A stretch of 64,000 bases of DNA from Mollicutes bacterium Phil14 (GTDB lineage: Bacteria; Bacillota_I; Bacilli_A; ML615J-28; CAG-698), in the NCBI GenBank assembly GCA_001940985.1, contig MSHB01000017.1:57410-121409 (forward strand), written 5' to 3'. A model generated the notes under the pieces. That model was not told where the DNA came from and made no database searches. It saw only the letters and a program-made list of their open reading frames with translations. Positions 53,130 through 58,193 of this stretch are shown in pieces. Every line of letters starts with the position of its first letter. The stretch's first letter is position 1. The position numbers and the translations under genes are program-made.

Positions 53130-53303
53130 ATGTTAGTAACATTAGTATTAATTATGTTGATGGTATTGGTATTTACATCAATATTGCTTGCCCTTACAAG
53201 CATCTTGAAATTACACTTCGATAATTACAGTTATTGTAGGAACGAGCTAAATGCTAGGTGTAATTCTGAGGATTATAAGTATTGTGCTACAATCAAGAGA
53301 TAA
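53130..53303 (+). CDS. Small single-TM protein (57 aa)
   Basis: AAAGGAG 8 nt before ATG 53130; hydrophobic N-terminal half. Confidence 0.5.
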   Translation: MLVTLVLIMLMVLVFTSILLALTSILKLHFDNYSYCRNELNARCNSEDYKYCATIKR

Positions 53304-53357: not shown

Positions 53358-53502
53358 TTGATTTATTTTTAAAAATATGATACAATTAGGCGAGTACTTT
53401 TGGTAAAAAAACAAAAGTAATGTTGCTTTAACGATATGTATATTTACAAGAATATGATCAGATTTAAATGCAAATGTACATATTGTACTTTTGCATTTTT
53501 TT
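53358..53502 (+). promoter_or_regulatory. oad operon leader: promoter, 5' hairpin, terminator, candidate attenuator
   Basis: TTGATT-17-TACAAT; hairpin TACTTTTG/CAAAAGTA; terminator AAATGCAAATGTAC-ATATT-GTACTTTTGCATTT plus T run; both contain GTACTTTTG. Confidence 0.65.
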
Positions 53503-53545
53503 GTTGTTAAAAAGGTATTAAAAATAAGATAAAAGGAGTAAAAAA

Positions 53546-54940
53546 ATGGGTGTAAAAATCGTTGACACATGTTTAAGAGATGGACATCAATCATTGTTTG
53601 CAACTCGTATGACTACTGATGAAGTATTATGTGCTTTATCTGAACTTGATAAGGCTGGATATTATGCATTAGAAGTTTGGGGTGGAGCTACATTTGATTC
53701 ATGTTTGAGATTTTTAAACGAAGATCCATGGGAAAGATTACGTAAGGTTCGTGCTATATGTAAAAACACAAAATTACAAATGTTGTTCCGTGGTCAAAAC
53801 ATCCTAGGCTATAAGCACTATGCTGATGATGTTGTTGACAAATTTGTTCAAAAGTCTTTAGAGAATGGTATTGATATCATTCGTGTATTTGATGCTTTAA
53901 ATGATATTAGAAATTTGAAGCAAGCTGTTGATTCTACTAATAAATATGGTGGACATTGTCAAATAGCTTTGAGTTATACAACAAGTCCAGTTCATACAGT
54001 TGATTACTATGTTAATCTAGCTAAAGAAGTTGAAAAAATGGGAGCACACTCTTTATGTATTAAAGATATGGCTGGTGTTTTACTTCCAGAAGATGCATAT
54101 GAATTATTCTCTAAATTAAAGGCTAATACAAAATTGCCACTTGAACTTCATACACATTGTACTGGTGGAATTGCTGAAATGACAGTTATGAAGGCTATTG
54201 AAGCTGGTTGCGATATCGTTGATACTGCTTTATCTCCTCTTGCTGGTGGAACAAGTCAACCTTGTACTGAATCATTACAATATGCTTTACAAGGCACAAA
54301 GTATGATCCAAAATTAGATGTTAAGATGTTAGAAGCTGCAGCAGTAAAATTATCTAAAGTTAGAGAAAAATATTTAGCTAATGGATTATTAAATCCTAAA
54401 GCATTAGGTATAAATCCTAATATTTTAAAATATCAAGTTCCTGGTGGAATGCTTTCAAATTTAATGAATCAATTAAAGAGCCAAGGCGCTATGGATAAAT
54501 ACGAAGAAGTTTTAAAAGAAGTTCCACGTGTTAGAAAAGATTTAGGATATCCTCCACTAGTAACTCCACTTTCACAAATGGTTGGTACTCAAGCAGTTAT
54601 GAATATACTTTCTGGCGAAAGATATAAGATAGTTCCTAAAGAGATTAATGAATATGTTAGAGGTTTATACGGGAAATCTCCTGCTCCAATTGATGAAGCA
54701 GTTAAAAAGAAGATTTTAGGTGATGGCGATGTTAAGATTATTACTCATCGTCCAGCTGATGATTTAGAACCTCAATTTGAAGCTTATAAAGAAAAATATA
54801 AAGATTTAGTAAAGAGCGATGAAGATGTTTTATCTTGTGCTTTGTTTGAACAAGTTGCTGTCAAATTCTTAGAGAATAGAGACAAAAAAGTATCCGAAGA
54901 CAAAGATGAAGTTATCGAAGTTAATCTTTATATAGGATAA
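53546..54940 (+). CDS. oadA: Oxaloacetate decarboxylase alpha / carboxyltransferase subunit
   Basis: VDTCLRDGHQSLFATRMTTDE; LCIKDMAGVL; LELHTHCTGG; no biotin domain. Confidence 0.9.
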   Translation: MGVKIVDTCLRDGHQSLFATRMTTDEVLCALSELDKAGYYALEVWGGATFDSCLRFLNEDPWERLRKVRAICKNTKLQMLFRGQNILGYKHYADDVVDKFVQKSLENGIDIIRVFDALNDIRNLKQAVDSTNKYGGHCQIALSYTTSPVHTVDYYVNLAKEVEKMGAHSLCIKDMAGVLLPEDAYELFSKLKANTKLPLELHTHCTGGIAEMTVMKAIEAGCDIVDTALSPLAGGTSQPCTESLQYALQGTKYDPKLDVKMLEAAAVKLSKVREKYLANGLLNPKALGINPNILKYQVPGGMLSNLMNQLKSQGAMDKYEEVLKEVPRVRKDLGYPPLVTPLSQMVGTQAVMNILSGERYKIVPKEINEYVRGLYGKSPAPIDEAVKKKILGDGDVKIITHRPADDLEPQFEAYKEKYKDLVKSDEDVLSCALFEQVAVKFLENRDKKVSEDKDEVIEVNLYIG

Positions 54941-54960: not shown

Positions 54961-55302
54961 ATGTTTTTAGCTATTTATGAAGATTTAGAAGTTTTCAAAG
55001 GCCTTGACGGTTTTTTGAAGGGTTTAGTTATTTCTGTTATTGCAATGGCAATAGTATTTGCAATACTTCTAATAATTTGCTTATTAGTTAAAGTATTAAA
55101 GTTAATAGGCAATGTGGCAGGAAAAAATAAAAAAGAAGAAAAGAGTGAGAAATTCATTCCTGCGACTAACGAGAAAAAAGCATTCAGTGCTGAAGATATT
55201 AAAGATGATGATATGATGGCTGCAATATTAGTAGCTACAATTGATTATGTTAGTGAAACAAAAGAAGACGCAAGAGTTGTGTCTGCAAAACAAATAGGAT
55301 AA
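54961..55302 (+). CDS. OadG-like gamma subunit
   Basis: Short protein with one TM helix between alpha and biotin-carrier genes. Confidence 0.75.
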   Translation: MFLAIYEDLEVFKGLDGFLKGLVISVIAMAIVFAILLIICLLVKVLKLIGNVAGKNKKEEKSEKFIPATNEKKAFSAEDIKDDDMMAAILVATIDYVSETKEDARVVSAKQIG

Positions 55303-55320
55303 AAATTTAGGAGTGTAAAA

Positions 55321-55677
55321 ATGAAAGTTTATAAAGTTAAAGTTAATGGTAAAGTTTATGAAGTTGAATTAGAAAGCGTTACTGAAAAAGCAGGAAATAT
55401 TGCTGCTAGCCCTAAACAAGAAGTTAAAGAAGAAGTTAAAGCTGCTCCAGTTGCTAGTGGTGCAGGTGTTGAGTTAAAAGCTCCAATGCAAGGTACTATT
55501 ATTAAAATCAATGTTGAAGTTGGTTCACAAGTTAAAAAAGGTCAATGCGTATTACTTCTTGAAGCAATGAAACTTGAAAACGAAATCGTTGCTACTGCTG
55601 ATGGCACTATTAAACAAATCCTTGTAACAAAAGGTCAAACTGTAAATAGTCAACAAGTATTATTAATAATTGGGTAA
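55321..55677 (+). CDS. Biotin carboxyl carrier protein
   Basis: LKAPMQGTIIKINVEVGSQVKKGQCVLLLEAMKLENEIVA. Confidence 0.93.
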   Translation: MKVYKVKVNGKVYEVELESVTEKAGNIAASPKQEVKEEVKAAPVASGAGVELKAPMQGTIIKINVEVGSQVKKGQCVLLLEAMKLENEIVATADGTIKQILVTKGQTVNSQQVLLIIG

Positions 55678-55682
55678 TTACT

Positions 55683-56858
55683 ATGAATGAAGTTGTAAAT
55701 ATTTTAAAGGAGATAGCTTTAGAATCAGGTATATACAAACTATTCATTGGTGATGGATGGAAAAATGCTGTTATGCTTGGTGTTGGTATTATTCTTTTAT
55801 ACCTAGCTATTTTTAGAGATTTCGAACCTTATTTACTAATTCCAATTGGTTTTGGTATATTAATTGCAAATTTCCCTGGTGATACTGATATTTTTATTAA
55901 AACTGTAATTGATGAGACTACAGGTGAAGCAAAATATTCTGGGCTTTTAGGTTTCTTATATACAGGTGTTAAAACAGGTATATATCCGTGCTTAATATTC
56001 TTAGGAATTGGTGCTACTACTGACTTTGGTCCACTAATTGCTAACCCTAAGAGTATGTTATTAGGTGCTGCTGCTCAATTAGGTATTTTCATTACTTTCT
56101 TAGTAGCAATAGCTTTACCTCAATTTGATGCAAAAGAAGCAGCTTCAATTGGTATTATTGGTGGTGCTGATGGTCCAACTGCAATCTTAGTTACTACTAA
56201 ACTTGCTCCTCACCTATTAGCTTCTATTTCTGTAGCTGCATATTCTTATATGGCTTTAGTTCCTGTAATTCAACCTCCAATTATTCGTTTATTAACAACT
56301 AAAAAAGAACGTTTAATCAAGATGAAACAATTACGTGAAGTAAGTAAATTGGAAAAAATATTATTCCCAATTTTCGTTACAATCGTTGTAGTTTTACTTA
56401 TCCCTTCATGTGCTCCATTAATTGGCTGCTTAATGTTAGGTAACTTAATAAAAGAATGTGGTGTTGTTCCTAAATTATTAGAAAATGCTTCTAATGCAAT
56501 GCTTTACATCGTAACAATTTTACTAGGATTATGTGTTGGTGCAACTGCAACTGGTACAACATTCTTAAAGGTACAAACATTATTAATCTTCGGATTAGGT
56601 ATCATTGCTTTCAGTTTTGCTACTGCAGGTGGTGTATTATTTGGTAAGATTATGTGTGCTGCAACTCATGGTAAAGTTAACCCAATGATCGGTGCTGCTG
56701 GTGTAAGTGCTGTTCCAATGGCAGCTAGAGTTGTTCATAAAGAAGGTATGAAAGAAGATCCAACTAACTTCTTATTAATGCATGCTATGGGCCCTAATGT
56801 TGCTGGTGTAATTGGTTCTGCAATCGCTGCTGGTATTTTATTGATTTTATTCAAATAA
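55683..56858 (+). CDS. oadB: Sodium ion-translocating decarboxylase beta subunit
   Basis: LFLGIGATTDFGPLIANPK; IGIIGGADGPTAI; GKIMCAATHGKVNPMIGAAGVSAVPMAARVV. Confidence 0.95.
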   Translation: MNEVVNILKEIALESGIYKLFIGDGWKNAVMLGVGIILLYLAIFRDFEPYLLIPIGFGILIANFPGDTDIFIKTVIDETTGEAKYSGLLGFLYTGVKTGIYPCLIFLGIGATTDFGPLIANPKSMLLGAAAQLGIFITFLVAIALPQFDAKEAASIGIIGGADGPTAILVTTKLAPHLLASISVAAYSYMALVPVIQPPIIRLLTTKKERLIKMKQLREVSKLEKILFPIFVTIVVVLLIPSCAPLIGCLMLGNLIKECGVVPKLLENASNAMLYIVTILLGLCVGATATGTTFLKVQTLLIFGLGIIAFSFATAGGVLFGKIMCAATHGKVNPMIGAAGVSAVPMAARVVHKEGMKEDPTNFLLMHAMGPNVAGVIGSAIAAGILLILFK

Positions 56859-56876
56859 GATAGGTTAAATTGATAA

Positions 56877-57446
56877 ATGAACAAAAGAATTAAAAATTTA
56901 ATTATTGATTCTATCTTGCTAGCTGTTTTAATAATAGCTAGCAAGATTTCTATTTATACTAGTTTTGTACCATTTACATTACAAATATTAATAGTACTTA
57001 TCATATCTTTACTTTTGAATTATAAAGAATCTTTGATTGTTATAGGTATTTATATTTTGATGGGAATAATTGGTATACCGGTTTTTTCATCTAGTGTTGC
57101 AGGTGTGGCTTCGTTTGTTACTCCATCATTTGGATTCATCATTGGTTTTTTAGCTATGAGCTTTTTTGTGCCTTTCACAAAGAAAAAGTTAGCAAATAGA
57201 ATTAATAATAAATTTTTAGTAAATTTATTAGCATCACTAATAGGATTATTTATTGACTATTTCTTTGGCTTTTGCTATGCTGTAGTTTTATACAAGGTAT
57301 TGATGGTTCTAGAAACACAGATGAGTACTTTTAAATTGTTGTTTAATTTTGTAATAGTTTTTATTCCTTTTGATATTGTGAAATGTTTATTAGCTTCAAC
57401 TATTGTTAAAAGACTAGAAAATAGTAAATTAATAGAGGAAGAATAA
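56877..57446 (+). CDS. bioY: Biotin transporter BioY
   Basis: Small multi-TM protein with VPFTLQILIVLI and GIIGIPVFSSSVAGVASFVTPSFGFIIGF. Confidence 0.9.
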   Translation: MNKRIKNLIIDSILLAVLIIASKISIYTSFVPFTLQILIVLIISLLLNYKESLIVIGIYILMGIIGIPVFSSSVAGVASFVTPSFGFIIGFLAMSFFVPFTKKKLANRINNKFLVNLLASLIGLFIDYFFGFCYAVVLYKVLMVLETQMSTFKLLFNFVIVFIPFDIVKCLLASTIVKRLENSKLIEEE

Positions 57447-58193
57447 ATGAGTAGTTTGGAAAAAATAAAATTTGTTGAAAGCATTTCTTCAACAAACACT
57501 TATTTAAAAGAAAATTATTTTCATTTAGAGAATATGTTCTCTATTTGCTCTAAACATCAAACAAATGGAAAAGGCAGATTAGGTAGAACATGGAATGATG
57601 ATGATGATTTATTAATGTCAATTCTATTAAAAGATGAATTGCAGTTAGAAAAAATTGAAGAGATTAGTCTTTTAATATGTGCTTCAATTTTCAAAGCTCT
57701 AAGTGAAAAAATAAGTGGCCTTAAAATTAAATGGCCTAATGATATTTTATTAAATGGTAAAAAAATTTGTGGTATTTTACTTGAAAGTGTGGTATCAGAT
57801 AAGCTTGAATGTTTAGTTATTGGTTTTGGAATAAATGTCAATACTAAAAAATTCCCTGATGATTTGAAAAATAAGGCTACATCTCTACTTTTAGAAACTA
57901 ATCACTCTTATAATATAAAAGAACTAGCAGAAAAAATATATTCACAATTTACTTTTGATTATGAAGACTACAAAAAAGGAAAAAAAGATTATTTGAAAGT
58001 TTGTAAAGAAAATTCATGTTTATTAGACAAAGAAATAACATATTTAAACCAAGGTGTTTTAGTTAATGCTAAGGTTATAGATATTTTGAGTAATGGTCAT
58101 ATTCTCCTTGAAAGTGACGGGAAGCAATATGAAAAAAGTAGTGGAGAAATAACACTTCATTATAGCTATTATTCAAATATACAAAATGACTAG
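57447..58193 (+). CDS. birA: Biotin--[acetyl-CoA-carboxylase] ligase
   Basis: SISSTNTYLKE, TNGKGRLGRTWNDD, KIKWPNDILLNGKKICGILLE. Confidence 0.93.
   Translation: MSSLEKIKFVESISSTNTYLKENYFHLENMFSICSKHQTNGKGRLGRTWNDDDDLLMSILLKDELQLEKIEEISLLICASIFKALSEKISGLKIKWPNDILLNGKKICGILLESVVSDKLECLVIGFGINVNTKKFPDDLKNKATSLLLETNHSYNIKELAEKIYSQFTFDYEDYKKGKKDYLKVCKENSCLLDKEITYLNQGVLVNAKVIDILSNGHILLESDGKQYEKSSGEITLHYSYYSNIQND

Follow-up and report, generated by a model that had tools for sequence, protein, structure and literature searches.

The 5′ leader of an operon for a Na+-pumping oxaloacetate decarboxylase (oad) is probably a transcription attenuator, in which one shared strand (B) pairs either with a strand upstream of it (A), forming an antiterminator, or with a strand downstream of it (C), forming an intrinsic terminator. 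The choice between A:B and B:C is supported by covariation among homologous leaders, from which we infer its action in the cell. Because the leader matches no Rfam family and no attenuator has been described for Na+-pumping oxaloacetate decarboxylase operons in the open-access literature, it is a new attenuator family within a known kind of regulator. It was found in the window, i.e. the whole 64,000-nucleotide stretch of DNA that was analyzed, which comes from G000, the 1.69 Mb genome of an uncultured Bacilli bacterium; 43 genomes represented its order in the analysis. The leader spans positions ~53393 to 53545, and its parts and surroundings are the following.

53130-53303, + strand: frame for a small membrane protein (57 aa, ending in ...NSEDYKYCATIKR), upstream of the oad leader
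53358..53386, + strand: promoter TTGATT-17-TACAAT with an extended -10 (TATGATACAAT), of the same form before the homologous leaders
53394..53419, + strand: P1, a hairpin at the transcript 5′ end (TACTTTTG / CAAAAGTA, 8 bp)
53421-53432, + strand: frame ATG TTG CTT TAA
53431..53445, + strand: strand A, 5′ half of the putative antiterminator, ACGATATGTATATTT; MFE partner of B, with A:B covariation
53466..53479, + strand: terminator 5′ arm, AAATGCAAATGTAC
53472..53486, + strand: strand B, shared, AAATGTACATATTGT; 3′ half of the putative antiterminator
53485..53498, + strand: strand C, the terminator 3′ arm, GTACTTTTGCATTT
53496..53502, + strand: T run of the intrinsic terminator, kept in 11 of 11 leaders
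53533..53538, + strand: Shine-Dalgarno sequence AAGGAG of oadA
53546..54940, + strand: oadA, oxaloacetate decarboxylase alpha subunit (464 aa, lacking a biotin domain)
54961..58193, + strand: remainder of the operon, i.e. oadG, biotin carrier, oadB, bioY and birA
57447-58193, + strand: birA, adjoining bioY and encoding the catalytic domain only

TTGATT begins at 53358 and TACAAT occupies 53381-53386, with a spacing of 17; a promoter scan by itself did not rise above chance (11 found, 12.2 expected), and the extended -10 promoter is kept in the homologous leaders. The terminator (53466-53479/53485-53498) comprises 9 bp, a T:T mismatch and 4 bp, and strand B overlaps its 5′ arm, its loop and the first bases of its 3′ arm. 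When the leader was folded (z=-3.2, with 3 of 200 shuffles equally good), the result was a long A:B hairpin that destroys the terminator. Downstream, the oadA product carries HMGL-like and PYC_OADA domains (Pfam) and is identified as the oxaloacetate decarboxylase alpha subunit by NCBIfam NF008985, with a score above the cut-off, while the biotin carrier is encoded by a separate gene of the operon. The birA product of this operon lacks the N-terminal DNA-binding domain and is therefore unlikely to be the usual biotin repressor. The genus has three other genomes, and each of them encodes, upstream of oad, a homologue of the 57-aa membrane protein whose end is similar and also contains Cys.

Homologous leaders were recovered from 11 genomes, which belong to four genera (g1, g3, g17 and g19) in two families of one order, and they precede either oadA or a divergent PEP-carboxykinase gene (pckA′) that is followed by oadA. 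They share the element order promoter, 5′ hairpin, A, loop, B, C and T run; A-B-C always stands between the promoter and the first gene, where each of the 11 has a terminator hairpin with a T run, and in all 11 a transcript cut before C has the A:B hairpin as its MFE structure. An alignment of the 11 leaders (A1), made with MAFFT from the sequences alone and not fitted to structure, contains conserved blocks at strand A, the GCA of B, the TTTGC of C and the T run. On this alignment 88.7% of the A:B cells are paired, and two-sided changes occur in 4 of the 10 pairs. The covariation score of A:B, a structure first derived from folds of leaders in this very set, is 0.302 versus 0.184 in shuffles, and none of 500 shuffles reached it, a test that is inflated by relatedness within a small sample of 11 leaders and four genera, all from draft assemblies. 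Sliding the partner strand by 1-3 columns reduced A:B pairing to 14-60%. B:C is 98% paired, with two two-sided pairs in g1 and g3 and one in g17 and g19. In the comparison of the source species with its nearest relative, G003, whose oadA is 92% identical, a C-to-U change in B is matched by a G-to-A change in A and by another in C, which is the signature of a strand obliged to pair with both A and C, the register of A in G003 being ambiguous because this strand is a TA repeat.

The folding energies are more modest, in that A:B differed from shuffled upstream sequence at p<0.05 in only 4 of the 11 leaders. The two states have similar energies in g1, whereas in g19 the terminator (-18 to -20 kcal/mol) is far more stable than the antiterminator (-10 to -13 kcal/mol), and the set point is thus not the same in all species. 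The attenuator is also not universal in the window's own genus, two of whose four genomes (G001 and G002) have oad leaders that lack it.

P1 appears to be a separate element. A TTTTGG-type segment opens the majority of oad and pckA leaders in the order, whether or not an attenuator is present; this segment often precedes a T run and can fold back near the transcript start. The first 40 nt gave a mean z of -1.3 in 29 oad or pckA′-oad leaders versus -0.46 at 14 promoter-like sites of the window, most of which lie close to genes and one of which is the oad promoter itself. A clear 5′ hairpin is missing from some leaders (g17, g21_G032, g5 and g16). The hairpin that the preliminary description had made one state of the switch is thus present, but apparently as a separate element that also occurs in oad and pckA leaders without a terminator, and it perhaps serves in mRNA-end protection or factor binding. 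A search of the order for the promoter plus TTTGG.TTTTT returned 13 matches, 6 of which are oad or pckA′-oad leaders; two of those outside oad stand at plausible promoters, before a P-type ATPase-like gene in G001 and a gene of unknown function in G014. The former (L256:1500-1545) has the same promoter and a TTTGGATTTTT start, and is possibly a second gene carrying the 5′ element. The generic pattern TADAAT..TTTGG was uninformative in the source genome.

The A-B-C element follows the operon, whichever gene comes first in it. A covariance model built on A-B-C and run against the order and against 397 genomes of the class found its own source leaders once per genome, except that G003 was lost to the fast filter, and no other convincing match was seen in either set; weaker matches, as inspected, were ordinary terminators or intragenic. 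Within g19 the first gene varies, the element standing before pckA′ in G030, G033 and G037 and directly before oadA in G035 and G036, which indicates that it goes with the operon. The g19 operons have neither bioY nor birA next to oad, and those of g3 have birA without bioY. The divergent PEP carboxykinase-like protein (~545 aa, e.g. L173:1207-2835) is encoded directly upstream of oadA in many relatives, and homologues were seen in G005, G008, G012, G014, G019, G023, G030, G033, G034 and G037. It scores far below the curated cut-offs of all NCBIfam PEPCK models, and its position suggests a PEP-oxaloacetate-pyruvate Na+-pumping module. Where the oad operon is free-standing, the species mostly has a canonical pckA instead, and the source genome gave no PEPCK match at all.

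The leader had been put forward as a candidate riboswitch or attenuator unlike any named class, and an Rfam 15 covariance-model search (T-box included), at gathering and lax thresholds, indeed gave no leader match near the gathering score. The attenuator part of that proposal is supported, while the riboswitch label is unproven, the leader having neither a visible conserved unpaired core nor a match to a known aptamer. If it were a riboswitch, a metabolite or ion (Na+, oxaloacetate, PEP, pyruvate or citrate) would bind in a pocket made of P1 and the A:B hairpin and so set the balance between A:B and B:C; the single copy of the leader, its operon specificity and its terminator and antiterminator speak for this reading. 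The closest functional precedent is the Na+-I riboswitch (DUF1646 motif, RF03071), because it uses a terminator to control genes for oxaloacetate decarboxylase: it can precede such genes in other organisms, where either its aptamer stem or an intrinsic terminator forms (PMC9337991). The leader described here shares that gene association and the terminator-based choice, but not the conserved aptamer; RF03071 matched neither the leader (E<=10) nor any of the 43 genomes of the order, while a Lactococcus lactis control was positive. Moreover, A1 lacks invariant columns beyond the switching strands, the GCA and the T run, spacers and loops range from ~10 to 60 nt in length, and no conserved pocket-like loop is visible outside A, B and C in the 11 members, with P1 keeping its TTTTGG-type motif. 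We therefore consider a riboswitch of this kind rather unlikely.

It is likewise doubtful that the element is a partial terminator that is fixed and unregulated, or that the leader promoter makes a small stand-alone RNA whose 3′ end the element forms, with A as a folding feature only. Sister species that lack the terminator get by on a short, bare leader, and no sensor was identified, both of which are in keeping with a fixed terminator; an unregulated terminator, however, has no need of A, which covaries with B, and the element stays at the operon's head even where a different gene comes first.

The preliminary description had assigned the switch to other strands, CAAAAGTA pairing either with the 5′ copy of TACTTTTG or with the terminator 3′ arm. 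Its landmarks are all in place, including the promoter, TACTTTTG at 53395-53402 and again at 53486-53493, CAAAAGTA at 53412-53419, the terminator with its T run, the ATG TTG CTT TAA frame and the downstream oad operon, and the 8 bp complementarity is exact in the source species. A comparable match, AAGTATGT:ACATACTT, was found in g17 (p=0.002). Nevertheless, the duplicated 9-mer GTACTTTTG is near chance, since a direct repeat of at least 9 occurs in 8-26% of shuffled leaders (p 0.08-0.26), and the pairing of the 5′ hairpin region with the 3′ arm of the terminator does not exceed shuffled sequence in the source species (p=0.17), is not kept in the sister species G003, and has no homologous counterpart there or in g19. 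Outside g17 only marginal, scattered matches were seen, and P1 also stands in leaders that have no terminator. At chance level and unconserved, this pairing was rejected as the conserved switch, and it is very unlikely to operate as one. Examination of covariation in the oad leaders of relatives, which had been suggested as a check, thus upheld a terminator/antiterminator switch, but one built on a helix that had been missed, ACGATATGTATATTT (53431-53445) with AAATGTACATATTGT (53472-53486), and not on the duplicated CAAAAGTA/TACTTTTG elements.

Leader-peptide attenuation through the ATG TTG CTT TAA frame is highly improbable, as the frame, which does exist at 53421-53432, was found on inspection to have no Shine-Dalgarno sequence before it and no run of regulatory codons, and to be absent from the other ten leaders. 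In BglG/LicT/SacY systems, the antiterminator hairpin overlaps the terminator 5′ arm, and the RAT is ~30 nt. The oad leader has the same mutual exclusion of antiterminator and terminator by overlap at the 5′ arm, but its A:B hairpin is ~45-90 nt with a variable loop, and binding of this hairpin by a PRD/CAT-RBD protein can practically be dismissed, because CAT_RBD (PF03123) matched none of the 43 genomes of the order while positive controls worked. With the leader attenuators of Bacillota at large (pyr, trp, T-box and riboswitch platforms) the element shares a three-strand logic and a 5′ leader of ~110-180 nt, but it matches none of the Rfam families of the T-box or riboswitch platforms, and Rfam contains neither its sequence family nor its gene association. 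The layout also recurs, with unrelated sequence, in a single Izemoplasmatales oad leader (L037:700-840), which combines a 5′ hairpin of its own (GTTTTTAT/ATAAAAAC) with a terminator 5′ arm that can pair upstream (ATCGAGTTTAG:CTGATTCGAT) as a possible alternative of the A:B type.

We propose that transcription of the oad operon starts ~7 nt after TACAAT, and that P1 would be made first, followed by A and then B. Once B emerges, A:B would form and occupy the terminator's 5′ arm and loop, permitting read-through into oadA. Conversely, when A is not available, B would pair with C, the terminator would form before the T run, and transcription would stop ~40 nt before oadA. Hiding of A, or weakening of A:B, should thus lead to termination. 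As to what tips the switch, we tentatively rank highest a trans-acting factor, either a protein or an RNA, that acts on the P1-A region; a directly bound metabolite or ion is a weaker candidate, and so is the absence of any signal, with the element functioning as a fixed partial terminator. The lack of a conserved unpaired core in the 11 leaders favors a trans-acting factor or no signal over a classical aptamer, though it is compatible with a small one. Because the element stays with oadA or pckA′-oadA while bioY and birA come and go, any signal should come from the PEP/oxaloacetate/pyruvate node or from Na+ rather than from biotin, which is made less likely by the attenuator-bearing g19 operons that lack bioY and birA next to oad.

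Our analysis adds, for uncultured Bacilli, an attenuator family that is specific to one operon and has a defined switching strand, and, because the strands to be mutated are named exactly, a short synthetic template allows tests of the mechanism as well as of the signal. A more speculative possibility is that the leader represents a new riboswitch class, or the target of a new RNA-binding regulator, with Na+ or a metabolite of the PEP/oxaloacetate/pyruvate node as the signal sensed. Such a sensor, of which P1 would be a part shared with pckA leaders, would control the Na+-pumping decarboxylase and pckA′-oad operons of an order of gut and rumen Bacilli that has been little studied.
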